NCBI GenBank assembly: GCA_905221615.1 | Contig: CAJNDT010003369.1 | Coordinates: 186,001 to 250,000 of the forward strand | From: Symbiodinium sp. CCMP2592 | Lineage: Eukaryota > Sar > Dinophyceae > Suessiales > Symbiodiniaceae | Direction of reading: 5' to 3' | Length of the DNA: 64,000 nucleotides | In this document: positions 15,774-33,384 of the stretch, piece after piece | Layout: every line of letters starts with the position of its first letter | Position numbering within the stretch: position 1 is the stretch's first letter | Program-made: the position numbers and the translations under genes | Notes under the pieces: generated by a model | Told to the model about the DNA's origin: nothing | Database searches by the model: none | Seen by the model: only the letters and a program-made list of their open reading frames with translations

Positions 15774-18700
15774 TGGCGAGAGATTCAAACATTGGCTCCC
15801 AACCTAAGCGTTTACCCCGATCTTGTTCGACATCTATTTGTGGCGAGAGATTCTAACATTGGCTCCCAACACAAGCGTTTACCCCGATCTTGTTCGACAT
15901 CTATGTGCGGACAGAGATTCAAACATTGGCTCCCAACAACAGCGTTTACCCCGATCTTGTTCGACATCTATGTGTGGCGAGAGATTCTAACATTGGCTCC
16001 CAACACAAGCGTTTACCCCGATCTTGTTCGACATCTATGTGTGGCGAGAGATTCTAACATTGGCTCCCAACAGAATCGTTTACCCCGATCTTGTTCGACA
16101 TCTATGTGTGGACAGAGATTCAAACATTGGCTCCCAACACCAGCGTTTACCTCGATCTTGTTCGACATCTATGTGTGGCGAGAGATTCTAACATTGTCTC
16201 CCAACACACCGATCTTGTTCGACATCTATGTGTGGACAGAGATTCAAACATTGGCTCCCAACAACAGCGTTTACCCCGATCTTGTTCGACATCTATGTGT
16301 GGCGAGAGATTCTAACATTGGCTCCCAACACAAGCGTTTACCCCGATCTTGTTCGACATCTATGTGTGGCGAGAGATTCTAACATTGGCTCCCAACACAA
16401 GCGTTTACCCCGATCTTGTTCGACATCTATGTGTGGACAGAGATTCAAACATTGGCTCCCAACACAAGCGTTTACCCCGATCTTGTTCGACATCTATGTG
16501 TGGCCAGGGATTCAAACATTGGCTCCCAACACAAACGTTTACCCCGATCTTGTTCGACATCTATGTGTAGCGAGAGATTCAATCTTTGGAGAGATTCTAA
16601 CATTGGCTCCCAACAGAATCGTTGACCCCGATCTTGTTCGACATCTATGTATAGCGAGAGATTCAACAATTGGCTCCCGACACAAGGGTTTTCCCCGATC
16701 CTGTTGGATATCTATGTATGGCGAGAGATTCAATCATTGGCTCCCAACAACAGCGTTTACCCCGATCTTGTTCGACATCTATGTGTAGCGAGAGATTCAA
16801 GCATTGGCTCCCAACACAAGCGTTTACCCCGATCTTGTTCGACATCTACGTGTAGCGAAAGCTTCAAACATTCGCTCCCAACCTAAGCGTTTACCCCGAT
16901 CTTTTTCGACATCTATGTGTGGCGAGAGATTCTAACATTGGCTCCCAACACAAGCGTTTACCCCGATCTTGTTCGACATCTATGTGTGGACAGAGATTCA
17001 AGAATTGGCTCTCAACAGAAGCATTTACCCCGATCTGGTTCGACATCTATGTGTAGCGACAGATTCAATCATTGGCTCCCAACCTAAGCGTGTACCCCGA
17101 TCTTGTTCGACATCTATGTGTGGCGAGAGATTCAAGCATTGGCTCCCCACACAAGCGTTTACGCCGATCTAGTTCGACATCGATGTGTAGCGAGAGATTC
17201 AAAGATTGGCTCCCAACACAAGCTTTTACCCCGATCTTGTTCGACATCTATGTGTAGCGAAAGATTCAATCATTGGCTCCCAACACAAACGTTTACACCG
17301 ATCTTGTTCGACATCGATGTGTAGTGAGAGATTCAAGCATTGGCTCCCCAACACATGCGTTTACCCCGATCTTGTTCGACATCTATGTGTGGACAGAGAT
17401 TCAAACATTGGCTCCCAACAACAGCGTTTACCCCGATCTTGTTCGACATCTATGTGTGGCGAGAGATTCTAACATTGGCTCCCAACACAAGCGTTTACCC
17501 CGATCTTGTTCGACATCTATGTGTGGACAGAGATTCAAACATTGGCTCCCAACAACAGCGTTTACCCCGATCTTGTTCGACATCTATGTGTGGCGAGAGA
17601 TTCTAACATTGGCTCCCAACACAAGCGTTTACCCCGATCTTGTTCGACATCTATGTGTGGACAGAGATTCAACCATTGGCTCCCAACAACAGCGTTTACC
17701 CCGATCTTGTTCGACATCTATGTGTGGCGAGAGATTCTAACATTGGCTCCCAACACAAGCGGTTACCCCGATCTTGTTCGACATCTATGTGCGGACAGAG
17801 ATTCAAACATTGGCTCCCAACAACAGCGTTTACCCCGATCTTGTTCGACATCTATGTGTGGCGAGAGATTCTAACATTGGCTCCCAACACAAGCGTTTAC
17901 CCCGATCTTGTTCGACATCTATGTGTGGACAGAGATTCAAACATTGGCTCCCAACACAAGCGTTTACCCCGATCTTGTTCGACATCTATGTGTGGCCAGG
18001 GATTCAAGCATTGGCTCCCAACACAAACGTTTACCCCGATCTTGTTCGACATCTATGTGTAGCGAGAGATTCAATCTTTGGAGAGATTCAATCATTGGCT
18101 CCCAACACAAGCGTTTACCCCGATCTTGTTCGACATCTATGTATAGCGAGAGATTCAACAATTGGCTCCCGACGCAAGGGTTTTCCCCGATCCTGTTGGA
18201 TATCTATGTATGGCGAGAGATTCAAACATTGGCTCCCAACAACAGCGTTTACCCCGATCTTGTTCGACATCTATGTGTAGCGAGAGATTCTAACATTGGC
18301 TCCCAACACAAGCGTTTACCCCGATCTTGTTCGACATCTATGTGTAGCGAAAGCTTCAAACATTCGCTCCCAACCGAAGCGTTTACCCCGATCTTTTTCG
18401 ACATCTATGTGTGGCGAGAGATTCTAACATTGGCTCCCAACACAAGCGTTTACCCCGATCTTGTTCGACATCTATGTGTGGACAGAGATTCAAACATTGG
18501 CTCCCAACAACAGCGTTTACCCCGATCTTGTTCGACATCTATGTGTGGCCAGGGATTCAAACATTGGCTCCCAACACAAACGTTTACCCCGATCTTTTTC
18601 GACATCTATGTGTGGCGAGAGATTCTAACATTGGCTTCCAACACAAGCGTTTACCCCGATCTTGTTCGACATCTATGTGCGGACAGAGATTCAAAAATTG

Positions 18701-20049
18701 GCTTCCAACAACAGCGTTTACCCCGATCTTGTTCGACATCTATGTGTGGCGAGAGATTCTAACATTGGCTCCCAACACAAGCGTTTACCCCGATCTTGTT
18801 CGACATCTATGTGTGGACAGAGATTCAAACATTGGCTCCCAACACAAGCGTTTACCCCGATCTTGTTCGACATCTATGTGTGGCCAGGGATTCAAGCATT
18901 GGCTCCCAACACAAACGTTTACCCCGATCTTGTTCGACATCTATGTGTAGCGAGAGATTCAATCTTTGGAGAGATTCAATCATTGTCTCCCAACACAAGC
19001 GGTTACCCCGATCTTGTTCGACATCTATGCATAGCGAGAGATTCAACAATTGGCTCCCGACACAAGGGTTTTCCCCGATCCTGTTGGATATCTATGTATG
19101 GCGAGAGATTCAAACATATTGGCTTCCAACAACAGCGTTTACCCCGATCTTGTTCGACATCTATGTGTAGCGAGAGATTCAAGCATTGGCTCCCAACACA
19201 AGCGTTTACCCCGATCTTGTTCGACATCTATGTGTAGCGAAAGCTTCAAACATTCGCTCCCAACCGAAGCGTTCACCCCGATCTTTTTCGACATCTATGT
19301 GTGGCGAGAGATTCTAACATTGGCTCCCAACACAAGCGTTTACCCCGATCTTGTTCGACATCTATGTGTGGACAGAGATTCAAGAATTGGCTCCCAACAG
19401 AAGCATTTACCCCGATCTGGTTCGACATCTATGTGTAGCGACAGATTCAAGCATTGGCTCCCAACCTAAGCGTGTACCCCGATCTTGTTCGACATCTATG
19501 TGTGGCGAGAGATTCAAGCATTGGCTCCCGACACAAGCTTTTACGCCGATCTAGTTCGACATCGATGTGTAACGAGAGATTCAAAGATTGGCTCCCAACA
19601 CAAGCTTTTACCCCGATCTTGTTCGACATCTATGTGTAGCGAAAGATCCAATCTTTGGCTCCCAAACACAAACGTTTACACCGATCTTGTTCGACATCGA
19701 TGTGTAGTGAGAGATTCAAGCATTGGCTCCCCAACACATGCGTTTACCCCGATCTTGTTCGACTTCAAACATTCGCTTCCAACACAAGTGTTTACCCCGA
19801 TCTTGATCGACATCTATGTGTAGCGAGAGATTCAATCATTGGCTCCCAACATCTCCCAACACAAACGTTTACCCCCGATCCTGTTCGACATCGATGTGTA
19901 GCGAGAGATTCAAGATCTGGCTCCCAACACAAGCGTTTACCCCGATGTTGTTCGACATCTATGTGTAGCGAAAGCTTCAAAAATTAGCTCCCAACACGAG
20001 CGTTTACCCCGATCTTGTTCGACATCTATGTGTGGCGAGAGATTCTAAC
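15774..20049 (+). repeat. 67-bp tandem satellite, left block (~64 monomers)
   Basis: The monomer is 67 bp, measured from repeated spacings of 134 bp between identical phrases. Its core words are ttggctcccaac, gcgtttaccccgatcttg and ttcgacatctatgtgt. Two variants (tggcgagagattctaac and tggacagagattcaaac) alternate from about 17380 to 17960, forming a 134-bp higher-order unit. Longer blocks sharing the rare words aatctttggagagattc and attcgctcccaac recur about 1.49 kb and 0.89 kb apart, which shows segmental duplications inside the array. Because 67 is not a multiple of three, long open frames (up to 284 codons) arise by frame cycling; I treat them as non-coding. The block ends at the retrotransposon insertion. 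Confidence 0.9.
20045..20049. repeat. Target-site duplication, left copy (ctaac)
   Basis: The same 5 bp follow the other LTR at 30544-30548. Removing the element and one copy restores a perfect satellite monomer (gagattctaac followed by attggctccc). A 6-bp reading (tctaac) is also possible. Confidence 0.8.
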
Positions 20050-20291
20050 CCCGAAGATACGGGGGAGTGCACAGCGACCGGACCCTATATGTTTTCACGG
20101 ACGAACGAAGCATCATCATCGTCATACTGTAAAAATGCTTAGTCTGTACATTCTCTCACTCTTGATTTGTGCGTGTCTTCTGTTGCAGGGGCCATGCCTG
20201 AGCATATACACGCCTGCGCCTTGAACATATTGTGAAACATGCACCCGCCGTCAACAAGCAAGTAGTAAGCTGCGTACCTGAGGGATTCGCT
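20050..20291 (-). repeat. 3' LTR of the copia-type element (242 bp)
   Basis: By eye this is identical over 242 bp to 30302-30543. The element lies on the - strand, so this is its 3' LTR. Read on the - strand it starts AGCGAATCCC and ends TATCTTCGGG, so it lacks the usual TG...CA ends. Confidence 0.85.
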
Positions 20292-20298
20292 CTCCCCC
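20292..20298 (-). other. Polypurine tract of the LTR element
   Basis: GGGGGAG on the - strand lies directly upstream of the 3' LTR, where plus-strand DNA priming is expected. It is short but correctly placed. Confidence 0.5.
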
Positions 20299-20418: not shown

Positions 20419-23400
20419 TCATGTCCCCTCGCGGATCTCGAGCTCGGTTCTTCCTACCCACTGTTGATCCATCATCCTTCTCGCACTGTCAATCCGGAAA
20501 TTGTCGTCCAGCAGCTCCTCTGTACCATCACTGTATGTGATCACCGTACGTCTCCTTCCTGTGAGTCTGCTCATAGCAACCGGACTTGTAGTGCGATTGG
20601 GATCAAACAGCATAACACGCCATCCGAAGTGCCAACGAATCAACACATTCTGTCTCGCGTCATGCCTTGTGTACTCGTCCCGCGTGTAAGCATCATTGGG
20701 CCGCAGCTGATGCAGCGCTGAAGCTAACCCACCCCAAGCGGACTGGTAAGCAGCCAAGTATGCCAGTGGAGGTTGGTTTTCTGATGCAGGCCAATCGGCA
20801 CGCAGCCGAATGACCGGGTAATTCACAAACTGATTTGGCATCCAGTTTGGGCCTTCATTCGAACCCCTCGCGTCTCGTTGAGCCTCAAGAGCCTGACGAA
20901 CCCGGTTTTGAACATTCCAAGGCGGTAGGCCGGAGGCTTCAACAGCAGCTGGCTCAAAGTCCGGCTCATCATGGTAGACTCTCTGTCCCTGTCTTCTTCT
21001 TCTCAACCTCTCTTCTTCTTCTTCTGGAGGGGGGCCAACATACATCACATCGTCAACGTAACGAACTACCGTCCCCTCAGGAGGCACAGTAAGCTCACGA
21101 GCTACATCATGATCCTCTACCCTGTCCGCTGCCTGAGGCGAGAACTCCTGAAGTTCGTCCTCATCATCAGGCTGATTTTCCCCATCTGAGCTACGCTCCT
21201 CTTCTGGTTCATGTCGCTCAACCTCTCTCCTCTGTACTCTGCGTCGCCTACAACACCAACGACATGCCCACTTCAGACCTTCCCAAAGAGCAATAGACGT
21301 ACAGCATACCAGAAACATCAAAAACCATAGCTCATGGCTGTGACCTTCTGGTTCATCTGGCGATTGCTGAGCCTCTGCCGTAACGGCTGCCAATGTAAGC
21401 ACAACGGCCTGAATCCTGGCTGCGGAAGCTGGATCAATGACCTTCGTAGCTCCTTTTGGGCGCGCATCATGAACATTCCTAACTGCATCTAAACCCATAC
21501 CGTCCCGCAAAAGCTTCAAACGAGGATACGGCAAGGCCTTGGTTCCTGCATCGGCGATGTTTTTCCCCCCCTCTATGTGCCCTACGACGACATGTCCTTG
21601 CTTGGCCTGTTCTCTCAGCACATGTGCTCGAATTCTCAGGTGCCTACTTCTCCACCCGTTGGAGTCGCCATTTACAATAGAGATTGAAGCCATGTTGTCG
21701 TTCAACACGACCAACCGTGGCACCTTACCCATAAACTCCTGAAGGACGTAAGTTTGGGCCCTACCGAAGCTGAATCCGGTCATCAAACTCAAGAGTTCTG
21801 ACTCCGCGGTCGACGCAGCAGTGAACGGTTGTCTACCAGTGTTCCACCCCGTCAGAGACCCTTGAGTGTAAACCAAAGTTGACTCTTGCGATCGCTCACA
21901 TACAGGCGCGAATGCACTGTCTGTCATGGCCTCGATCACACCTTCAGCGTTCGGGGTGGCAGTAGCGCCTGGTTCACCCTGACAAGAATACGTAGCCCGA
22001 TATCGGAGGCAAAGGTCCTGCGTGTAGACAAGGTAACCAATGAGCTGCATGACTCTCTTTCTCACCGTAGCGGGGTCCCTTGACATGGTCTGTGCAAGGC
22101 GGGAAACAGCGAAAATAATGTCTGGCCGAGTGCGCCCTGCAACCCATAAGATTTCGCCCAGCGCCGTTTGGCAAGCAGAAACATCTTCGGGCCTACGCTC
22201 GGAAGCATCCTCTACATCCAAGGGTCCCGGGGTAGCAGGAACGCACGAGGCAGTTGCCTCGGGGTACCTAGTCGCCACATCCCGAATGAAGTCTTGTTGG
22301 CCAAGCAACAGATCCTTACCATCCCAGCGCAGCTCAAAACCAAAGAACTTGAGTGGGGGTTTAGTGGGGTCCTCGGGGATCCACTCTACCGGTCCGCACT
22401 TCCAGCGCGAAGTGATCAGCTCGAATATCATCGTCAAGACTGGACTGGGACCAAAGGCTAAGAGATCATCGACATACACCAACATGCATGCAACAGGCTC
22501 TCTCCAACTGTGGCTCTCTCCATCTTTAGGCACTCTCCGAAGGTACCACAAATTAGAGTCGACCAAACTCTGCTCAAACATGCATGTGACCCCATCGACT
22601 TGGCATGACATGCCCTCAATCTCACTGTCCCTCTTGATAGACCAGTCTCTTGGGGATTGATCCAACCCATACAGTGCCTTACACACCAGCATGAAGCATG
22701 ATCGATCAACATGTCCATGTCTATGCACAATGCTCGGAATCTTCAATACAATCACCTCAGTTGGGACATCCAAGGACAAAGGAGGTGGGGAGGAACGAGG
22801 ATTCACTCGATCAAGCAGCTCGGCGTTCAAAAACGCTGTAGTGATATCTGTAGCTCCCCCCTTCCAGGCTCTCTTAACCGCAATCGATGCCGCTTGGCGC
22901 ATCACTGAAGGGTCGATTCCTCCAGCATACAGGTTCGCCTTGGATGGTGACTGCTTACCCTTAGCCTGGCCCTGCCCATCTAGATGATTTCCACAGGCTA
23001 CCAACCGTGCCTTATGGCGCCCACCAGCCTTTCGGGTAATCACCATCTTGCTAGGAATAATGGTCACGCATGTTCCCTTTTCTTGCATTGCTTGCATTTC
23101 AGCGCTGGTGATCACCCTTACCGCCTGCTTTTCATGAACCAACGAATCAAGTTCTGCCTGGACTGCCGCGGACCACAAACTGTAATGCCTCTCAACTTCT
23201 TCCAACGGAACAGTGTGAGTAGTTAGCACTTCCGCATCGGGGAGCGTGGAATACTCGACACCGTCATCGGCCTTGCAACACCTCTCTTCTAAACGCTTGA
23301 TCGTGGAAGACAGCCCGTGAATATAACCCTCACGGTCACTATCCCCGGCTACCCCACTCCGATCTTGGAGCTTACACTCCCGACTCAGCAACGCCTTGAG

Positions 23401-26400
23401 GGCGATCTGCTGCCCATCAGGGTCAAAAGACTCAGAGGCCTCACCGACCCCAACCCAAGTTTCACCCGAGCTATCATGATCATCAGGTCCAACCTCACGA
23501 TCCGAAGCTCGACCTACAATGCTCTCCCACTCGACACAAGTAGGCTCACAAAACAGAAGATTACTCGTCACGGACACGTCCACCAACTCGCAATCCTCGG
23601 AAAAATCGGCATTCAGAGGGTTTAGACCACCCTTATGCCCCACACGCGCACCCACCCCAAGTGGGTCACAGCTCACATCCTCCCACCCAGCGCTGCCTGG
23701 CCGGCCAAGGGAAGGCGGAGCCTTTAAATCGCTCTCTGCATACTCAACAACATGTCTTTCACAGATTGAGCAAAGTCCAGCTACATCACTTTCACACGCC
23801 TTGCACCTGAAGGACCTACCGGAAAACCCACTTGTACCACTCGAAACCACTGGACCCTCAACTAGACCTGGCGCCCAATGCACACACTTCTGTTTCAACT
23901 TTCCTACACCCTTCAAGATGCCCTGGCTTTCAACCTCTGTCTCTCTGGTGTCATCACGATCACACGAAGAGTCACCACGACGGCCATCAAAACACGGAGA
24001 ATCACCACGACCCTCCTCACGACACTGAGTCTCACCACGACCCTCATCACGACATGGAGTGTCACCACGACCCTCATTACAACACTGAGCATCACTACGA
24101 CCCTCATCACGACATGGAGTCTCACCACGACCCTCATCACAACACTGAGCATCACTACGACCCTCATCTCGACACTGAGCATCACTACGACCCTCATCTC
24201 GCCGACGACTTTCACCCGCAGCTGCGAACTTCCCTGCATTCGCTGGGTCTAACCATGGGTAGGGATCCGGAGCATTCTGATTCCGCACCAAACTCGAGAA
24301 AGACCCTTCCTCATCACCGTATCTAGCATACATAGCTGGGACATCAACAATATCACCGGCTTTCAGCTGATTTGTGAGCCTTCGCCGTTGGACAAGCGTT
24401 AGCCCTGATCGCATCTCTTCTTTCTGAAGATCCCTCACCCTCGGAGCGCAAACATCATGACACTCTGAAGCTGCTTCATCGGATCCTTGGAGAACCTGCT
24501 CTGGGGCTTTGAAAACGTTTTCTTCAATGCGTTGCTCTAGGTCTCCCCCCTGCTGGCAATCGCCAGCAGTCAGCTGGAATCCGACATCACGCAACCGCTG
24601 AAGCTGCTGCTCAGTGACTCTCTCAAGACCCTTCAAGCTGTAAGCTACCAGCAAAATGCGTGACCCTTCACTCCAGTCTTCTGTAGCATGCCACTTGTGA
24701 GGGTTCAAAAGGAAGGGACATAGGGGAGTGAGGTCATGAACAGTGCCTGGTGCTTGTTGCTTGGGCGTGACCCACCTCCGATCAGCCCCGCTTTCATCCT
24801 GCACCCAAATCCCTCCCCCCTTATTGGGAACCTCAAGGGGTATGACAGCGTTGGAGGTCGGTTGGTTGAACTTGTCTTTGTGCGGCTTTGCCGTGGTCTG
24901 ACTGAGGATCGCAAGTGTGGTACACACATGTCCAGGTATCACATGCTGCACAAGACGGTTGAGTAGTTTGGTAAACCCTGGGAAGGATAAGCAATCTTTG
25001 GTCAACCCAACAATGCCACCATGACAATAAAATCCTAGGACCCTAGCGGACCCAGCATTTTCACGAAACCTCGCCCCAAGCCGTCCTGAAGAATCCCGAA
25101 TCCAGCGCGACCCTAACACGAACCTTCGAGACCTCTCGACATCGAACGGCTCGATCGAGGCTAGACATGACGCGTGCTCATCTTCAGACAACAGCCCATC
25201 AAGCATAGCAACAGATTCATCAGCAGCCGGTTTCTTTGCCCTCCGAGCGCTCAACGACGTCTTTCTGCGAACACGAACATCTGGGATCACTGCTGGACTA
25301 GCTGGCTTTGCTTTCTCGGCGGGGATGTGAAACTCTTCAGGGTTTGTATGCACAAGGTCTTCATACACGCATGGTACGTTCAGTAATGTGTCCTCTACAA
25401 GATACCCTGCCGAAAGCTCACGCGCAGGTGCCAACACCTTAGCCTCAACCACTCTCGACTTCCAATCGCCCCCCCTTGCCAAATTCCAACTTCTTTGAAG
25501 CACGTGAACCTTAGCCCCAAAAGGAATCAACCGCGGAATGTCCCACCCAAGCTTGACAGCCTGATCGCGGAATCGCTGAGCGCATGCATGACGGATAGCA
25601 TAGGGCCAATCTTGATCACTAACATCAGACTCTTTCATCAAGGTCCTAGCACACCCCTTCAGGATTCCGATGAGGTTCTCGGCAAAAGGATTGGCCTTGA
25701 ACCGGTCACCTCCTGTGTTTGTTTTGTGCATTCCTCTCTCTTTGGCCCATGTTCGCAACATGTTATTGCAGAACTCTTTACCTGCATCACTATGTAACCG
25801 TGCTACATGGCACCCCATCGCACACAGCCTGGCCTCAATGCCCTTGATTCCATTCATCACGTCCCTTGCCCCTTTTGAGGGTAGCGGTACGACGAACGGC
25901 AAGTGAACTAGCTCTAGCTGTTCTAGCGGTTGTGGCTCTGGCTCCACCGGGGCGTCATCAAGCTCAATAGGGCCCACGCCTCCACCATCATCGTCATCAC
26001 GATCGTCGTCATCCGCATTCTCCCACTCCCCTGGCTCCCCCGGAACAGCTGCTACATCTGCCTCAGGCTTATCCACTCTAGACCCGTTTAGCTCTGGCGC
26101 CCTAGGTACGGAGAAAACTGCCGCAAGGAAGTAGCTTGCCTTCGCACCCTCATGAGTACCGCGCTTAAAAGGTCCTGCGAGATCAACCGACAGCACAAAC
26201 GAATCGCTCACCGTCTGTCTGTAATGATTCTGTTTCTTCGCTCTTCCCGCTACACACGCGTAGCAGTCCTTACGGTAGGGGACATGTCCAGCTAACACGT
26301 GGTCCTTCATGGATTGCTGTACCTGAAGCCTCCGCATACCTTCTACGGTGGGCCCCTGTTGAAGAGCAGCATCCAGGTACTCTTCTACTGCTTGAACTAA

Positions 26401-29400
26401 CCCTGGAGACCAGCGTGCCTGATCTGCACTACACCCCGATGTATCCCGGTTGTGTCCCGGACCTCGGATGTTCATAGCCCAGTTCGGCCATAACCGTTCG
26501 AGACATGCTACTGTGGTAGGCCTTCTACACATGTGCCCCAGGGGGCCTTGATCAAGCCTCAGAAGCTGTAGCCCCAGTGTCTTCCGCAATGTATCAAACT
26601 CTGGCGTTACCCACAACGAAGGAGCCTGCTCGTGGCTACCCCCAAAAACTTCCCAAGGGTCCCTTGGGTTCTCCAGGAGATACGGGAAACCCGCCATTCG
26701 TCCGACTTGGATCTGATCCCGACCCCACTTTGAGGCAACACCCAGAATAAAGCTTCTGAGCATGAGCTGGTCGTCATAGTCAACCTTCTCACGCTCTTGA
26801 TGGGAGAGGTTCTCCAATCCAAACCTTTCAACCCCATACCGCGCCCGAACCACTGGTGGTCCTTCATCCTTACCTCCAAGGGCTGAGCGAGTCCTATCCG
26901 GAAGACCTGAAAGCACCGCAACAACCTTACCAGCGAGCGCCTGCTTCAGCAAGTATGTGTACGTAGCCGGATCGTTAAGGTCTTCAGTGGAGTCTATGGC
27001 TACAACCTTAGCCCCATGCTTCGCGGCTACAGCGTCAAACTCATGCCTCGATCTTCCACAGAAAAGATGCAGAACTATACCCTTGGAACGCTCTGCTGCC
27101 CTGCGCCTCCTACGATTGAAGGCACCTGGGGGCCCAGACCCCTGTGAGATCAAAGACACTGCTTGGGCAGCCTCTCGTGGGAATTCCGGAAAGAGCTTCT
27201 CACATAAAATCTCATGCCACATTTTAGCATCCCTTGACCTACCTTCTCTCACACTCTCGGCTACTTTACACATGACTGCCTCCCAGGACACCGCATCAGC
27301 ATCACGCATCATAGCAAGCTGATCTTCACCATACCCGTGAAGGTTGAAAGTTTCGATGCGGTCAATCAGGTTTTGCGCTACAGCCTTACACACCCTCGGA
27401 CAGCCGGAAGCCGTGGACAAAGGAACCGAGTAACCCTCTTCATCGAACAGTTGACATGCCCTCTTGGACCAAACCAGACGAAAGCCGATGGTGATGAGCT
27501 GTCGGAGTGAAACGATGGGTTCAACTTCTTCGTTAGCAAGTAAAACTCCCCCGGCACTGAATCCCATCTGAACTTCTCCCTGCGCGAGCGAAACCGTCTT
27601 CTCTCCAACTGGCTGCTCATCTTCCCTACGCATGCGCATGCATGTTGTGGCACCGGAGTCTATCAGACCTGTTTCATCGCGGGGACCTGGCTTCGGCGGG
27701 TATTTCGAACCTAGCTGCAAGGCCTTGATTGAGGTTTGAATAGATTCCAACACCGCGTTGGCCCGTGCAATCAGCTCGTCACGAGCCGACTTGTCGGTTT
27801 CACTAGCCCCCTTATCCTGAGCCTTCATAACCTCATCCCCTGATTTCCCCTTTTGGCTACCTTTCCCTGGCTTCCCACCGGGCTCGGCTTGCGCACGCTT
27901 GAACGGACAATCTGGCTTTCGGTGCTTTGTGCTACTGCAGTTGAAACACCTCTTATCGGCAGGGGTGAGGGCATCATGCGCAAACGTACAAGACTTCCCA
28001 TACCTACACCCGTCATCGGTTCTCCAGAGCCGACAAAGTTGTTTTCCACCATCCACCTTGGCAGCCCCCTTTGATGCACCCTTTCCTTCCTTCCCAACCT
28101 TTCCTCCCTTTCCTGGCACCTCATCCGCCTTAGCTACCGTCTGCCTCGCTCCACCCTTGTCTGCAGCTTCTGACAACACCGCCTCCTCGGCCTCTGCAAG
28201 CAGGAGCTCTGAAAACTGCAAAACCGTCTGTTGAGTTGGAGCCTGGTCGAGCAGAGCCTGCGTTCGGAAGGTTTGTACTCGGAAGGCTGCTGTATCGGAC
28301 AATGTCGGGGCGAGCCTTTCAAGACCCTTGAGCTGAAGGCTAGGGTCAGGAACGATTACCTGGAGTTCACGAGCACGGGCTAACCAACGACGCCATTTCC
28401 GCAGTGCTTTAACTGATGCAGCGCTTGTGGTGACGTTTTCAGGGGTGACTAGAAACGACAGAAGTTGCTGTTTCTCTGCAGCTCCTCCCGGTTGATATTT
28501 CGCCATAACCTTGAACACAATAGCGCATGTACCCAGCAAGCGAAGAGAGATCAGATCATCCTTCAGCTCATTACCCACTGCAGCCAACAACAAACTGACC
28601 GCCCGTTGATCAACCCTCGAGAACTTTCCATCGCGGTACCTGTTTACCAAGACCTCCGCCTGGATATGTAGTCTCTCCAGTGGGGAAGAGGATAACCATC
28701 GGCCATAGAACAGCTTGGCCGTGCTTACACAATCCTCCCAAAACACCCAAGCAGAAGCGGACAGCGCTGGCGTCAACGAGATAAGCCAATCCCCTGCTAC
28801 GATGGCTGATGTGGATGGGTTGTACTTGTCCAATTTAGGAAGCTCCAGCGAGGTTTTGGTAGGCTCCTCCGGCTTCTCGCCGATTCCCGGCGAGGGATCC
28901 AATCCGAAACCCCTGATCCCTGAAGCCTCACCGCCTGAGCTCCCCAACCCGAAACCACCCCAACCCATGCTTGCTTGCTGTCCTGTACTACCCGTGGTCC
29001 TCAACGCAGCAGGGATGGGTGGGGGAGGTGGGTAAGCCCCCCATGCCTTAGGTCCAAGTGTCTCCCAACTGCCTGTCCAATGATCCTGTGTCTGATGCTG
29101 TGGCGGGGGTGGTGGCCTAATCACTGTACCACCTGGCGATATCGGATACGGCAGTCTGCCTACAGCCTGATCGTTACCTGGAGTAGAAACTCCCTTACAA
29201 CCCCGATCCTTTTCAGCACTGATTTCGGCTCGTACAGCTGGGGTGTTCCTTTGCTTTGGGGTGCTTCTACTCCTGGGCGGGCTAGTGGTGTGTACCCTCC
29301 GAATGTTAGGAGTAACGACCTCATGATGTACGGACGTAGCCTGAAATGGAGACATCGACCTTTGATCAAGCACCTGGCTGACTGTGCAACTGCCACTCTC

Positions 29401-30258
29401 TCTGCCCCTCTCTCTCTCTTGCACACGCGTGAGTTTAAGACCATCCGGCGTCATCTGCCAGTCGTAAGAGATACCCTCCACCACCGTCACACCCTTGTTT
29501 TGATGCGTTGGGGCCTCAACGTGAGCGGAACCATTGCCCTTGGATGCCAAATCCCGCGCATGATGCAAACGAGTATCCTGAACCCCAACCGCTGACTCAG
29601 GCAAAACACCCGCTGGAACGGTAGTGGGTTGCTTCAACGCTGCATCTGCATTAGCCCCACTAGCACTTGGCTTGGAGCCCACCTCCAACGACTGAAGCAT
29701 GGCCAATACATGCTCACCTTGCGCCGTCAACGGCACTTGGGAGTCTCTCTCACTCTCCAACCTGTCTAGTCGGGACATGACCGCAGCCTGACTCATCATC
29801 ATACGATCTAGAGCAGGAGCCACATGGCTCTGCAGCGTCTGCTGTAGCATAGCACTCAACTGTCCCATGAGATCATTCGTCACCGCTGGTGGCGGCGCCG
29901 TAACTTGAGGCATCCTGCCTGCGGCCACTGATCGTGGCTCTTCTGTGGCTGGAATCAACTCATGATCACTCTGAGGACTGAAGTGTCTTGTTGCCGTCTG
30001 TTCTGTTGAGCTACCCGAGCCCCCATCCAGCAACCCAAGTGCTGCAGCATCCAGACCAAACTCTAAAGATGCCCCAGTCGCTCGCAAACCATACGGTGGA
30101 TCTAGCGGCTCGCTGTCCGGAAACAGGCGTTGACTTCTCTCATCTTCAGGTGAAACAGACGTGTTGCCATCTCTTGCTTCCTCGAACTCTTCATCCATAG
30201 CTTGTGCTAGCGCATCGTCGTGATCAGCAGTGTTAGTGCCATCATCTTGGTGTGCCAT
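20419..30258 (-). CDS. Ty1/copia-type gag-pol polyprotein, 3279 aa, intact
   Basis: One uninterrupted ORF starting 43 nt inside the 5' LTR. Domains in order, with residues: Gag-like region with Pro-rich stretch (~365-435) and capsid-like helical part (~485-690); CCCH finger (C742, C751, C757, H761); CCHC knuckle (C771, C774, H779, C784); aspartic protease D-S-G at 867; C5-methyltransferase-like region (~1055-1215); integrase zinc motif (H...H...C-x2-C, ~1318-1335) and D1359, D1491, E1527 (D-D-x35-E); 2OG-Fe(II) dioxygenase-like region (~1690-1890); ten-residue Cys/Glu/Arg repeats (~2015-2100); C-x2-C/C-x2-C finger (~2150); copia reverse transcriptase with Y-V-D-D at 2595-2598; RNase H (~2770-2910); a hydrophobic segment (~2975-3000) followed by an Arg cluster and acidic tail. 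Copia polyproteins are usually about 1,300-1,500 aa, so this one is more than double. The order protease-integrase-RT-RNase H is diagnostic of copia. Intactness plus identical LTRs suggests recent activity. Confidence 0.92.
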   Translation of the reverse strand: MAHQDDGTNTADHDDALAQAMDEEFEEARDGNTSVSPEDERSQRLFPDSEPLDPPYGLRATGASLEFGLDAAALGLLDGGSGSSTEQTATRHFSPQSDHELIPATEEPRSVAAGRMPQVTAPPPAVTNDLMGQLSAMLQQTLQSHVAPALDRMMMSQAAVMSRLDRLESERDSQVPLTAQGEHVLAMLQSLEVGSKPSASGANADAALKQPTTVPAGVLPESAVGVQDTRLHHARDLASKGNGSAHVEAPTHQNKGVTVVEGISYDWQMTPDGLKLTRVQERERGRESGSCTVSQVLDQRSMSPFQATSVHHEVVTPNIRRVHTTSPPRSRSTPKQRNTPAVRAEISAEKDRGCKGVSTPGNDQAVGRLPYPISPGGTVIRPPPPPQHQTQDHWTGSWETLGPKAWGAYPPPPPIPAALRTTGSTGQQASMGWGGFGLGSSGGEASGIRGFGLDPSPGIGEKPEEPTKTSLELPKLDKYNPSTSAIVAGDWLISLTPALSASAWVFWEDCVSTAKLFYGRWLSSSPLERLHIQAEVLVNRYRDGKFSRVDQRAVSLLLAAVGNELKDDLISLRLLGTCAIVFKVMAKYQPGGAAEKQQLLSFLVTPENVTTSAASVKALRKWRRWLARARELQVIVPDPSLQLKGLERLAPTLSDTAAFRVQTFRTQALLDQAPTQQTVLQFSELLLAEAEEAVLSEAADKGGARQTVAKADEVPGKGGKVGKEGKGASKGAAKVDGGKQLCRLWRTDDGCRYGKSCTFAHDALTPADKRCFNCSSTKHRKPDCPFKRAQAEPGGKPGKGSQKGKSGDEVMKAQDKGASETDKSARDELIARANAVLESIQTSIKALQLGSKYPPKPGPRDETGLIDSGATTCMRMRREDEQPVGEKTVSLAQGEVQMGFSAGGVLLANEEVEPIVSLRQLITIGFRLVWSKRACQLFDEEGYSVPLSTASGCPRVCKAVAQNLIDRIETFNLHGYGEDQLAMMRDADAVSWEAVMCKVAESVREGRSRDAKMWHEILCEKLFPEFPREAAQAVSLISQGSGPPGAFNRRRRRAAERSKGIVLHLFCGRSRHEFDAVAAKHGAKVVAIDSTEDLNDPATYTYLLKQALAGKVVAVLSGLPDRTRSALGGKDEGPPVVRARYGVERFGLENLSHQEREKVDYDDQLMLRSFILGVASKWGRDQIQVGRMAGFPYLLENPRDPWEVFGGSHEQAPSLWVTPEFDTLRKTLGLQLLRLDQGPLGHMCRRPTTVACLERLWPNWAMNIRGPGHNRDTSGCSADQARWSPGLVQAVEEYLDAALQQGPTVEGMRRLQVQQSMKDHVLAGHVPYRKDCYACVAGRAKKQNHYRQTVSDSFVLSVDLAGPFKRGTHEGAKASYFLAAVFSVPRAPELNGSRVDKPEADVAAVPGEPGEWENADDDDRDDDDGGGVGPIELDDAPVEPEPQPLEQLELVHLPFVVPLPSKGARDVMNGIKGIEARLCAMGCHVARLHSDAGKEFCNNMLRTWAKERGMHKTNTGGDRFKANPFAENLIGILKGCARTLMKESDVSDQDWPYAIRHACAQRFRDQAVKLGWDIPRLIPFGAKVHVLQRSWNLARGGDWKSRVVEAKVLAPARELSAGYLVEDTLLNVPCVYEDLVHTNPEEFHIPAEKAKPASPAVIPDVRVRRKTSLSARRAKKPAADESVAMLDGLLSEDEHASCLASIEPFDVERSRRFVLGSRWIRDSSGRLGARFRENAGSARVLGFYCHGGIVGLTKDCLSFPGFTKLLNRLVQHVIPGHVCTTLAILSQTTAKPHKDKFNQPTSNAVIPLEVPNKGGGIWVQDESGADRRWVTPKQQAPGTVHDLTPLCPFLLNPHKWHATEDWSEGSRILLVAYSLKGLERVTEQQLQRLRDVGFQLTAGDCQQGGDLEQRIEENVFKAPEQVLQGSDEAASECHDVCAPRVRDLQKEEMRSGLTLVQRRRLTNQLKAGDIVDVPAMYARYGDEEGSFSSLVRNQNAPDPYPWLDPANAGKFAAAGESRRRDEGRSDAQCRDEGRSDAQCCDEGRGETPCRDEGRSDAQCCNEGRGDTPCRDEGRGETQCREEGRGDSPCFDGRRGDSSCDRDDTRETEVESQGILKGVGKLKQKCVHWAPGLVEGPVVSSGTSGFSGRSFRCKACESDVAGLCSICERHVVEYAESDLKAPPSLGRPGSAGWEDVSCDPLGVGARVGHKGGLNPLNADFSEDCELVDVSVTSNLLFCEPTCVEWESIVGRASDREVGPDDHDSSGETWVGVGEASESFDPDGQQIALKALLSRECKLQDRSGVAGDSDREGYIHGLSSTIKRLEERCCKADDGVEYSTLPDAEVLTTHTVPLEEVERHYSLWSAAVQAELDSLVHEKQAVRVITSAEMQAMQEKGTCVTIIPSKMVITRKAGGRHKARLVACGNHLDGQGQAKGKQSPSKANLYAGGIDPSVMRQAASIAVKRAWKGGATDITTAFLNAELLDRVNPRSSPPPLSLDVPTEVIVLKIPSIVHRHGHVDRSCFMLVCKALYGLDQSPRDWSIKRDSEIEGMSCQVDGVTCMFEQSLVDSNLWYLRRVPKDGESHSWREPVACMLVYVDDLLAFGPSPVLTMIFELITSRWKCGPVEWIPEDPTKPPLKFFGFELRWDGKDLLLGQQDFIRDVATRYPEATASCVPATPGPLDVEDASERRPEDVSACQTALGEILWVAGRTRPDIIFAVSRLAQTMSRDPATVRKRVMQLIGYLVYTQDLCLRYRATYSCQGEPGATATPNAEGVIEAMTDSAFAPVCERSQESTLVYTQGSLTGWNTGRQPFTAASTAESELLSLMTGFSFGRAQTYVLQEFMGKVPRLVVLNDNMASISIVNGDSNGWRSRHLRIRAHVLREQAKQGHVVVGHIEGGKNIADAGTKALPYPRLKLLRDGMGLDAVRNVHDARPKGATKVIDPASAARIQAVVLTLAAVTAEAQQSPDEPEGHSHELWFLMFLVCCTSIALWEGLKWACRWCCRRRRVQRREVERHEPEEERSSDGENQPDDEDELQEFSPQAADRVEDHDVARELTVPPEGTVVRYVDDVMYVGPPPEEEEERLRRRRQGQRVYHDEPDFEPAAVEASGLPPWNVQNRVRQALEAQRDARGSNEGPNWMPNQFVNYPVIRLRADWPASENQPPLAYLAAYQSAWGGLASALHQLRPNDAYTRDEYTRHDARQNVLIRWHFGWRVMLFDPNRTTSPVAMSRLTGRRRTVITYSDGTEELLDDNFRIDSARRMMDQQWVGRTELEIREGT
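23960..24215 (-). repeat. 30-bp minisatellite inside the polyprotein
   Basis: About nine in-frame copies of a 30-bp unit (+ strand: catcacgacactgagtctca then ccacgaccct), encoding ten-residue repeats of the type C-R-D-E-G-R-[SG]-D-[AT]-[QP]. It is charged and Cys-containing. The 30-bp length keeps the reading frame, so copy number can vary without breaking the ORF. Confidence 0.75.
24580..25190 (-). other. Candidate TET/JBP-like 2OG-Fe(II) dioxygenase domain in the polyprotein
   Basis: Residues about 1690-1890. The key signature is H1793-x-D1795 (context K-P-H-K-D-K-F-N), then G-G-G-I-W-V-Q after ~20 residues, then P-H-K-W-H-A-T-E-D-W with H1854 or H1857 as distal iron ligand, and R1867 ten residues after H1857 in G-S-R-I-L-L-V-A-Y as 2-oxoglutarate binder. 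The order HxD ... G-G ... H ... R and the strand-forming hydrophobics are those of the double-stranded beta-helix oxygenases; the H-x-D-x-x-N and G-G-x-[LI]-W spacing is closest to TET/JBP-type enzymes. It lies between integrase and reverse transcriptase. Function is inference; it could also be an AlkB-like or prolyl-hydroxylase-like oxygenase. Confidence 0.6.
26610..27100 (-). other. C5-methyltransferase-like domain in the polyprotein
   Basis: Residues about 1055-1215. It starts V-L-H-L-F-C-G-R-S, like SAM motif I of C5-cytosine methyltransferases (L-F-x-G), followed by an acidic residue ending the next strand (V-V-A-I-D). The region where the catalytic P-C dipeptide is expected reads G-L-P-D-R-T (P1120-D1121), so the nucleophilic Cys appears replaced. 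A later R-F-G-L-E-N-L stretch and an E-N-P motif remain. If the family call is right, the domain may bind DNA or SAM but is unlikely to methylate. Confidence 0.45.
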
Positions 30259-30274
30259 GGCTCAAACAGGATCC

Positions 30275-30300
30275 GGTTACGAGCTGCTTGGGCTCATAAC
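30275..30300 (-). other. Primer-binding site matching a tRNA-Met 5' half
   Basis: The 26 bp immediately inside the 5' LTR read, on the + strand, as a tRNA D-arm/anticodon-arm segment: ggtta, then gagc, then a stem G-G-G, the 7-nt loop ctcataa with CAT anticodon, and C-C-C. On the element's strand the sequence is therefore complementary to the 5' half of a tRNA-Met ending near the anticodon loop. This is the priming arrangement known from Drosophila copia, rather than a match to a tRNA 3' end. Confidence 0.65.
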
Positions 30301-30301
30301 C

Positions 30302-30543
30302 CCCGAAGATACGGGGGAGTGCACAGCGACCGGACCCTATATGTTTTCACGGACGAACGAAGCATCATCATCGTCATACTGTAAAAATGCTTAGTCTGTA
30401 CATTCTCTCACTCTTGATTTGTGCGTGTCTTCTGTTGCAGGGGCCATGCCTGAGCATATACACGCCTGCGCCTTGAACATATTGTGAAACATGCACCCGC
30501 CGTCAACAAGCAAGTAGTAAGCTGCGTACCTGAGGGATTCGCT
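30302..30543 (-). repeat. 5' LTR of the copia-type element (242 bp)
   Basis: Identical by eye to 20050-20291. It drives the polyprotein whose ATG is 43 nt downstream. A TATATGC word and a TTTTT run are present on the - strand; which of them, if either, acts as core promoter cannot be decided here. Confidence 0.85.
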
Positions 30544-30548
30544 CTAAC
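30544..30548. repeat. Target-site duplication, right copy (ctaac)
   Basis: Matches 20045-20049. The satellite monomer resumes exactly here. Confidence 0.8.
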
Positions 30549-33384
30549 ATTGGCTCCCAACACAAGCGTTTACCCCGATATTGTTCGACATCTATGTGTA
30601 GCGAGAGATTCAATATTTGGCTTGCAACACAAGCGTTTACCCCGATCTTGTTCGACTTCAAACATTCGCTTCCAACACAAGCGTTTACCCCGATCTTGAT
30701 CGACATCTATATGTAGCGAGAGATTCAATCATTGGCTCCCAACACAAACGTTTACCCCCGATCCTGTTCGACATCGATGTGTAGCGAGAGATTCAAGATC
30801 TGGCTCCCAACACAAGCGTTTACCCCGATCTTGTTCGACATCTATGTGTAGCGAAAGCTTCAAAAATTAGCTCCCAACACGAGCGTTTACCCCGACTTGT
30901 TGTATATCTATGTGCAGCGAGAGATTCAAACATTGGCTCCCAACACAAGCGTTTACCCTGATCTTGTTCGACATCGGTATGTAGCGAGAGATCCAATCAT
31001 TGGCTCCCAACATAAGCGTTTACCCCGATCTTGTTCGACATCTATGTGTGGCCAGGGATTCAAACATTGGCTCCCAACACAAGCGTTTACCCTGATCTTG
31101 TTCGACATCGGTATGTAGCGAGAGATCCAATCATTGGCTCACAGCAGAAGCGTTTACCCTTTTCTTAATCGACATCTATGTGTAGCGAGAGATTCAATCA
31201 TTGGCTCCCAACACAAGCATTTACCCTGATCTTGTTCGACATCTATGTGTAGCGAGAGATTCAATCATTGGCTCCCAACACAAACGTTTACCCCGATCTT
31301 GATCGACATCTATGTGTAGCGAGAGATTCAAAGATTGGCTCCCAACACAAGTAGTTGCCCCGATCTTGTTTGACATCTATGTGTAGCGAGAGATTCCAAC
31401 ATTTGCTCTTAACACAAGCGTTTACCCCGATCTTGTTCGACCTCTACGTGTAGCTGTAGCGAGAGATTCAATCATTGGCTCATAGCAGAAGCTTTTACCC
31501 TGTTCTTAATCGACATCTATGTGTAGCGAGAGATTCAAACATTGGCTCCCAACACAAGCGTTTACCCTGATCTTGTTCGACATCGGTATGTAGCGAGAGA
31601 TTCAATCATTGGCTCCCAACACAAGCGTTTGCTCCGATCTTGTTCGACATCTATGTGTAGCGAGAGATTCAGTCATTGGCTCCCAACACAAGCGTTTACC
31701 CCGATCTTGTTCGACATCTATGTGTAGCGAGAGATTCAAAGATTTACACCGATCTTGTTCGACATCCATGTGTAGCGAGAGATTCAATATTTGGCTCCCA
31801 ACACAAGCGTTTACCCCGATCTTGTTCGACATCTATGTGTGGCAAGTGATTCTAACATTGGCTCCCAACACAATCGTTTACCCCGATCTTGTTCGACATC
31901 GATGTGTAGCGACATATTCAACACGCTGGCTCCCAACACAAGCGTTTACCCCGACCTTGTCGTATATCTATGTGTAGCGAGAGATTCAAACATTGGCTCC
32001 CAACACAAGCGTTTGCCCTGATCTTGTTCGACATCGGTATGTAGCGAGAGATCCAATCATTGGCTCCAAACATAAGCGTTTACCCCGATCTTGTTCGACA
32101 TCTATGTGTGGCCAGGGATTCAAACATTGGCTCCCAACACAAGCGTTTGCCCCGATCCTGTTGGATATCTATGTATGGCGAGAGATTCAAACATTGGCTC
32201 CCAACACAAGCGTTTACCCCGATCTTGATCGACAGCTATGTGTGGTGGGAGACTCAATCATTGGCTCCCAACACAAACGTTTGCCCCGATCTTGTTCAAA
32301 ATCTATGTGTGGTGGGAGATTGAAACACTGGCTCCCAACACAAGCGTTTACCCCGATCTTGATCGACATCTATGTGCAGCGAGAGATTCAATCATTGGCT
32401 CCCAACACAAGCGTTTACCCCGATCTTGTTCGACATCTATGTGCAGCGAGAGATTCAAAGATTGGCTCCCAACAGAAGCGTTGACCCCGATCTTGTTCGA
32501 CAGCCATGTGTGGTGGGAGATTCAATCTTTGGCTCCCAACACAAACGTTTGCCCCGATCTTGTTCGACATCTATGTGTGGTGGGAGATTGAAACATTGGC
32601 TCCCAATACAAGCGCTTACCCCGTTTTGTTCGACATCGATGTGTAGCGAGAGATTCAAAGATTGGCTCCCAACACAAACGTTTACCCCGATCTTGTTCGA
32701 CATTTATGTGTAGCGAGAGATTCAAACATTGGCTCCCAACACAAGCGTTTACCCTGATCTTGTTCGACATCGGTATGTAGCGAGAGATTCAATCATTGGC
32801 TCCCAACATAAGCGTTTACCCCGATCTTGTTCGACATCTATGTGCAGCCGTAGCGAGAGATTCAATCATTGGCTCACAGCAGAAGCGTTTACCCTTTTCT
32901 TAATCGACATCTATGTGTAGCGAGAGATTCAATCATTGGCTCCCAACACAAGCATTTACCCTGATCTTGTTCGTCATCTATGTGTTGCGAGAGATTCAAA
33001 CATTGGCTCCCAACACAAACGTTTACCCCGATCTTGATCGACATCTACGTGTAGCTGTAGCGAGAGATTCAATCATTGGCTCACAGCAGAAGCGTTTACC
33101 CTGTTCTTAATCGACATCTATGTGTAGCGAGAGATTCAAACCTTGGCTCCCAACACAAGCGTGTACCCTGATCTTGTTCGACATCGGTATGTAGCGAGAG
33201 ATTCAATCATTGGCTCCCAACACAAGCGTTTTCGCTGATCTTGTTCGACATCTATGTGTAGCGAGAGATTCAACATTTGGCTCCCGACACAAGCGTTTAC
33301 CCCGATCTTGTTCGACATCTATTTGTAGCGAGAGATTTAAACATTGGCTCCCAACACAAGCGTCTACTCCGATCTTGTTCGTTG
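30549..33384 (+). repeat. 67-bp tandem satellite, right block (~42 monomers)
   Basis: Same monomer and phase as the left block, but more divergent: many tagcgagagattcaatc variants, monomers with cagcagaagcg, short insertions (agctgtagcg) and partial units. It ends abruptly inside a monomer (gatcttgttcgttggaag). The lower homogeneity fits an older or less recombining edge of the array. Confidence 0.9.

Follow-up and report, generated by a model that had tools for sequence, protein, structure and literature searches.

We analyzed a stretch of 64,000 nucleotides (nt), here referred to as the window, from contig CAJNDT010003369.1 of the dinoflagellate coral alga Symbiodinium sp. CCMP2592. Its minus strand holds a Ty1/Copia-type retrotransposon of recent insertion whose frame is open, and within the Pol part of this element a domain for which the evidence supports the TET/JBP-type Fe(II)- and 2-oxoglutarate (2OG)-dependent oxygenases as the nearest known family. 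In animals, enzymes of this kind oxidize methylated DNA bases. Coordinates are positions in the window, and residues are counted from the ATG of the single Gag-Pol open reading frame (ORF) at 20419..30258, which runs uninterrupted for 3,279 amino acids (aa). This ORF is flanked by a 5' long terminal repeat (LTR) at 30301..30545 and a 3' LTR at 20049..20293, both on the minus strand and 100% identical along 245 nt. The LTR termini are not TG...CA and read AGAGCG...TCGGGG on the minus strand. Adjoining the 5' LTR, a candidate primer-binding site was read from the sequence at 30280..30300 (minus strand). When complemented, this site resembles the anticodon arm of a tRNA which we take to be the initiator Met tRNA, and this is comparable to the half-tRNA priming of Drosophila copia. 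No clear 5-nt target-site duplication was found at the element flanks, which lie inside a satellite array. The array is composed of 67-bp units and hosts the element between its parts at 15774-20049 and 30546-33381.

The polyprotein contains a CCCH zinc finger (27973..28038, residues 741-762) that matched Pfam zf-CCCH_4 above the cut-off (E 4.8e-6) and is followed by a CCHC-like knuckle recognized by eye. Next come the aspartic protease motif LIDSGATTC (27640..27666, residues 865-873), a C5-methyltransferase-like module (26311..27132, residues 1043-1316) and an integrase region (25339..26310, residues 1317-1640) with DLAGPF at 1359 and HSDAGKEF at 1489. The putative oxygenase domain (24550..25149, residues ~1704-1903) is followed within the ORF by an in-frame 30-bp tandem repeat of DEGRSDAQC-type units (23962-24198). 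A Copia-type reverse transcriptase (RT) region (21979..23121, residues 2380-2760) with YVDD at 2595 and an RNase H region (21409..21981, residues 2760-2950) complete the series. All of these lie on the minus strand, and the bounds of the integrase, RT and RNase H regions are those of the queries used.

In the window the Pfam matches of integrase (rve, E 0.025) and RT (RVT_2, E 8.9e-5) stayed under the cut-off, and the regions are identified through related elements, against which pieces of the window ORF were used as queries. The protease region is homologous in the elements L039 and L040, the integrase and RNase H regions in these two and in L042, and the RT region is likewise supported by homology. 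L039 (in two frames) and L040 (in one frame) have the order protease, methyltransferase-like module, integrase, oxygenase, RT and RNase H in common with the window element. In L042 and L043, unlike in the window, the oxygenase precedes the integrase; L043 is a clear Copia element with RVT_2 above the cut-off (49.7 bits) and rve at E 2.6e-5. As judged from motifs and homology, Gag, protease, integrase, RT and RNase H follow each other in one polyprotein as in Ty1/Copia elements. Together with the paired LTRs and the homology this bears out the proposal of an earlier note on this DNA, which had described a Copia-type element with the domain between integrase and RT. The interval given there for the domain, 24580..25190, holds a real domain when read as part of the minus-strand ORF; the plus-strand reading contains stops.

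With the LTR as query, 13 matches were found genome-wide, of which 12 were strong (six sites with two LTRs each) and one was weak (73%, partial LTR). The paired-LTR sites are located on contigs C4980, C3369, C3935, C685, C1669 and C900, and no solo LTR was found in this search. In four of the six elements, which are near-identical copies, the oxygenase lies in an open frame of 3,254-3,296 aa; in the copies on C685 and C1669 its frame is interrupted by stops or frame changes. The family is small and young, since there are six paired-LTR sites and no solo LTR, and four of the six frames are open. A pseudogene was considered and rejected on account of the open frame, the four open copies and the few amino-acid changes. 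One near-identical copy is represented by a public protein (P0004, GIP, Symbiodinium sp. CCMP2592) in which the greater part of the oxygenase, and also some of the methyltransferase-like stretch, is absent. These gaps are probably false introns of the gene model, the DNA frame being open.

The affinity of the domain to TET/JBP was established through intermediates. Eleven TET-like sequences, none of them a Copia member, were made into a profile, which scored the window ORF (P0001) at 100.2 bits over residues 1728-1903. For comparison, none of the window's other stop-to-stop frames with at least 60 aa, 480 in all, scored above 4.7 bits, and 1,000 shuffles of the domain gave at most 5.6 bits; a chance motif was rejected on these grounds. 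The low-complexity repeat (23962-24198) was rejected as the source of the match as well, since it lies outside the domain. Aligned profile to profile by hhalign, three Copia sequences and the same 11 TET-like ones gave 99.5% (E 4.2e-23, 160 columns). The Pfam family Tet_JBP (PF12851) matched six of ten scanned relatives, with E values from 8.7e-7 (P0007) to 0.014, and none of the other four; the oxygenase domain of the DIRS-like element L005 alone matched at E 6.8e-7. The window and L005 domains are 31% identical and have H, D, N, GG, W, H and R in common. The Tet_JBP-matching relatives are thus linked by hhalign to the Copia group. Of three profiles compared with the PDB, the one built from relatives aligned to TET2 at HRD..HN and HATTP (E 0.3), another matched nothing but histidine kinases (at best E 1.9) and the remaining one gave no match.

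The structure model points in the same direction. The domain is predicted to adopt the double-stranded beta-helix fold of 2OG-Fe(II) oxygenases, and in VIA-align NgTET1 was the nearest structure, with 15-16% identity over aligned residues; the modelled beta-helix is closest to TET structures. Profiles through relatives, the ranking of the model and the active-site residues described below thus favor the beta-helix oxygenase with TET/JBP nearest that the earlier note had suggested. It had named a prediction lacking the beta-helix, or best hits in an unrelated family, as fatal to its claim; checked as far as possible, these points did not refute it. Its interpretation is supported in part, the cDNA marking, influence on integration and supply of 5-hydroxymethyluracil that it also proposed being hypothetical functions.

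Several results weigh against this assignment. Pfam and NCBIfam gave no match on the window oxygenase domain itself. Tet_JBP was matched at E <=0.01 in only six of the 33 domain-bearing proteins, and the best score of any relative (29.6 bits) does not pass the curated cut-off of 34.9. In VIA-align the AlkB structures trail NgTET1 by just 1.1 Z, and Foldseek ranked ALKBH5 first. That an LTR element has captured an AlkB-like demethylase of RNA or DNA, as happened in orchid Gypsy elements, is nevertheless to be judged quite unlikely. No AlkB family occurs among the Pfam matches of the window or of the ten relatives, and none is among the six families counted in the 33 members, whereas some relatives do match Tet_JBP. 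Besides, NgTET1 still heads the VIA-align ranking, and Asn and an aromatic residue occupy the base-contact positions of TET.

Structure comparison also brings in oxygenases that act on proteins. Prolyl-4-hydroxylase and AspH structures, which share the fold, were among the Foldseek matches, and the top match in BFVD, again a point against TET/JBP, comes from a phage and bears the name Asp/Asn/Pro hydroxylase domain protein; a Sylvanvirus JBP1/TET protein was fourth. The domain might on this account be a prolyl- or asparaginyl-hydroxylase-like enzyme acting for instance on Gag or integrase. We consider this very improbable, given that the relatives tested had no hydroxylase match in Pfam or NCBIfam and that base-contact residues of TET type are conserved. 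The viral structure library as a whole gave 54 matches at E <=0.001, a mixture of 2OG oxygenases and some plant-virus replicases, and this mixture does not decide between the families. Some plant-virus replicases are known to carry AlkB domains.

For the active site, positions equivalent to those of TET were set by their spacing from HxD (D+3) and from the arginine (R, R+6, R+8). Conservation in the genome was counted over 33 distinct places, after rows covering <130 profile positions and six of 39 domain rows repeating a place had been dropped. The putative iron ligands H1793-x-D1795 (24874..24882, minus strand as for all following residues; HKDKFN from 1793) and H1857 (24688..24690, in HATED) were kept in 33 of 33 places. 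The residue numbers of the earlier note, including R1867, proved exact; its GGGIW stretch starts at 1814, and of the two distal histidines it had left open, 1857 is the conserved one and 1854 is not. Trp was likewise kept in all 33 places. N1798 (D+3; 24865..24867) is Asn in 32/33 and Y1873 (R+6; 24640..24642) is Y or F in 32/33. R1867 (24658..24660; EGSRILL from 1864) is R in 23, P in seven and S in three places. In alignment A8, comprising 33 database proteins including the window, Asp, Asn, Arg and the aromatic residue were present in 33/33 each and Trp in 31/33, while each of the two iron histidines was H in 31 rows and R in two.

According to the available text of PMC7854593, the residues at D+3 (TET2 Asn1387, NgTET1 Asp234, CMD1 Asp350) bond N4 of 5-methylcytosine (5mC), those at R+6 (TET2 Tyr1902, NgTET1 Phe295, CMD1 Phe416) stack on the base and the arginine (TET2 Arg1896, NgTET1 Arg289) holds the 2OG carboxylate. 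At R+8, TET2 His1904 and NgTET1 His297 bond the base and CcTet has Arg393 (PMC7854593, PMC11040006 and PMC4224472, in the parts available). Two of three base contacts of TET2 and NgTET1 are therefore present in the window (D+3 and R+6), and the third is missing: at R+8 every one of the 33 places has L, V, T or S and never the His or Arg of the TETs. Because two contacts are matched and one is not, we probably have here a base oxygenase whose pocket has changed. The missing histidine also counts on the opposing side, since it makes 5mC specificity, and with it the substrate, less certain.

A further opposing observation is that two sister Copia lineages (L029-L038, ten of the 33 places) keep the iron ligands and have Ser or Pro for the 2OG arginine. 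This, and the adjoining methyltransferase-like module that is probably dead, would suit a remnant without catalysis that Pol retains for binding nucleic acid or for folding. We give little credence to such a remnant in view of the iron ligands, which are kept in every place, and of the pattern of substitutions, in which the oxygenase shows fewer amino-acid changes than the methyltransferase-like or the integrase-side stretch; as copy-to-copy counts are small, they are given raw. Between the window and the C900 copy, 12 synonymous and one non-synonymous change were found in the oxygenase (151.7 and 481.3 sites), compared with 10 and five in the methyltransferase-like stretch 1041-1270 (169.3 and 520.7 sites). 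Between the C3935 and C900 copies there were 15 and one in the oxygenase (151.5 and 481.5 sites), compared with 23 and 10 in the 500 codons upstream (351 and 1149 sites). Upstream counts of three pairs with L009 (222-227 and 708-711 changes) were dropped, being out of register through length differences.

Of 741 codon pairs, 37 had a synonymous divergence (dS) of 0.02-1.2 and were taken, and 12 of these, with L002 or L008, were dropped as their upstream stretch is out of frame (ratios 0.68-0.98). The 25 kept pairs had Nei-Gojobori ratios of 0.00-0.24, many of them sharing sequences and thus being non-independent. The most diverged kept pair, L027/L028, had a non-synonymous divergence (dN) of 0.046 and a dS of 0.237.

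The methyltransferase-like module of the window and of the three other open copies has Pro-Asp instead of the Pro-Cys of motif IV and so lacks the catalytic residue, which is kept as P-C in the relatives P0002 and P0003. In the window subfamily the module is probably dead, as far as its residues tell. With the motif-IV Cys lost, the idea that the oxygenase acts on 5mC made by the element itself is weakened, which likewise speaks against our interpretation. The module occurs in both Copia and DIRS-like elements, and methylated cytosine is thereby indicated. By hhalign the L043 module reached 95.5% with the DIRS methyltransferase group (deep alignment), compared with 4.8% in an earlier comparison of such modules with a thin alignment; the window module reached only 0.4% with the L043 module alone. 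A profile of 100 DIRS methyltransferases had no match in P0001-P0003 by hmmsearch.

The oxygenase is widespread in its own genome, where 4,775 candidates were found and all of the 150 scored matched (E <=3.5e-23), two broken copies occupying two rows each. Among the scored matches are long frames (1,000-3,557 aa) as well as many frames of a shorter class, ~350 aa each. Further Copia relatives with the domain in their ORFs were among them, as the earlier note had proposed to look for. In a quick tree, in which 17 of 48 inner branches remained open, the window-type Copia elements formed one group (SH-aLRT 85) beside other Copia groups of the same genome and apart from DIRS-like elements. The class of short frames includes L041 (4005-5045, contig C715) and L047 (contig C890), in which the oxygenase is a 347-aa ORF and which are 95.7% identical over 9.7 kb. 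In L041 it neighbors a ubiquitin hydrolase (above the cut-off), a kinase-like ORF and a glycosyltransferase-like ORF (under the cut-off), and Pfam named no RT in the five L041 frames scanned. This repeat, unlike the retroelements described here, could be a large DNA element.

A genome search with Pfam Tet_JBP gave four matches among 150 of 155 candidates scored, all under the cut-off (E 2.2e-4 to 3.0e-4) and all of one element kind. We call it DIRS-like from the ORF order, motifs seen by eye and the description of SymbioDIRS in the available text of PMC5890265; Pfam support is weak (RVT_1 E 0.012, Phage_int_SAM_1 E 0.41). Its frame reaches 1,283 aa, and in it the oxygenase is accompanied by a methyltransferase-like stretch and by an RT; in the single copy fully examined a recombinase-like ORF lies upstream. 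With this element as query, 96 proteins were found in the protein database (best 7,994 word-sharing candidates scored), and 25 of them have all or part of the oxygenase.

A rival reading has thymine as the substrate. The same TET/JBP-type enzyme could make 5-hydroxymethyluracil (5hmU) in element DNA, and such elements would then supply part of the 5hmU present in dinoflagellate chromosomes. This is a real alternative because 5hmU is enriched over repeats in Breviolum (PMC11071213, part of the text), and we regard it as possible, if doubtful. The base-contacting Asn could in principle bond O4 of thymine, the His contacting 5mC is absent, the oxygenase family is very abundant and the four Tet_JBP matches among the 150 candidates scored in the genome belong to the DIRS-like kind. 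That search, however, would miss an intron-split host gene. Human TET2 also has Asn at D+3, and in CMD1 an Asp-to-Asn change there did not permit transfer to thymine, although the reaction is a different one (both from the available text of PMC7854593). Breviolum 5hmU is, moreover, particularly enriched on Maverick elements, with no statement on Copia in the available part of PMC11071213.

We prefer, with somewhat better than even confidence, a recent Copia element with a TET/JBP-type base oxygenase in Pol that oxidizes the element's own DNA. Placed between integrase and RT, the module would presumably be released by the element's protease, or stay fused to integrase or RT and travel with them. 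It would oxidize the 5-methyl group of a pyrimidine in the element's cDNA or in fresh insertions, its most likely role being oxidation of 5mC, and this oxidation would counter host silencing or degradation.

Mobile carriers of TET/JBP-type oxygenases are already known from fungi, with several families in one genome (PMC12730594; Kyakuja and others). These are DNA transposons and Helitrons, whereas here the oxygenase is fused inside the Copia Pol of a dinoflagellate. The same 2025 study of fungi remarked that TET/JBP enzymes are absent from retrotransposons, and also mentions phage cassettes which pair a C5-methyltransferase with TET/JBP in one selfish element (PMC12730594, available text). In contrast to these, the window element is a retroelement and its methyltransferase is apparently inactive. 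Dinoflagellate retrotransposons with a captured DNA-modifying enzyme have been described as SymbioDIRS-Dnmt3 and SymbioLINE-Dnmt; they carry a methyltransferase instead of an oxygenase. In the available text of that paper (PMC5890265) Symbiodinium Copia elements are without any DNMT domain, whereas a methyltransferase-like module was found in Copia here, and its main text, as available, contains none of the terms TET, JBP and dioxygenase. Orchid Ty3/Gypsy elements are LTR retrotransposons that likewise contain a 2OG-Fe(II) oxygenase, but of the AlkB family, as an additional ORF of a 25-kb element and acting on RNA m6A (PMC9289625, available text). NgTET1, human TET2, CMD1 and CcTet resemble the window domain in HxD...H...R, in the D+3 residue (Asn as in TET2) and in the aromatic R+6, and NgTET1, the only one compared for fold, also in the predicted fold. 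The window domain differs from all four in lacking His or Arg at R+8 and in being part of a retroelement polyprotein. Among the matches listed in our literature search, with most subscription journals and bioRxiv preprints outside its scope, no title reported a TET/JBP domain in a retrotransposon.

TET/JBP enzymes in mobile elements and methyltransferases in retroelements were thus known. Here a TET/JBP-type oxygenase is fused into Pol, with few amino-acid changes, and recurs in several retroelement lineages of one genome, where it can sit beside a methyltransferase-like module. Two questions thereby become directly testable: whether a retroelement can remove or rewrite the marks that the host sets on its DNA, and which enzyme is responsible for dinoflagellate 5hmU. 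The domain comprises ~200 aa and is assayable on its own. That much of the chromosomal 5hmU is made by retroelement-borne TET/JBP enzymes instead of a host gene seems unlikely to us at present; if true, selfish elements would write their own 5hmU mark, and the genome would have adapted to live with it.
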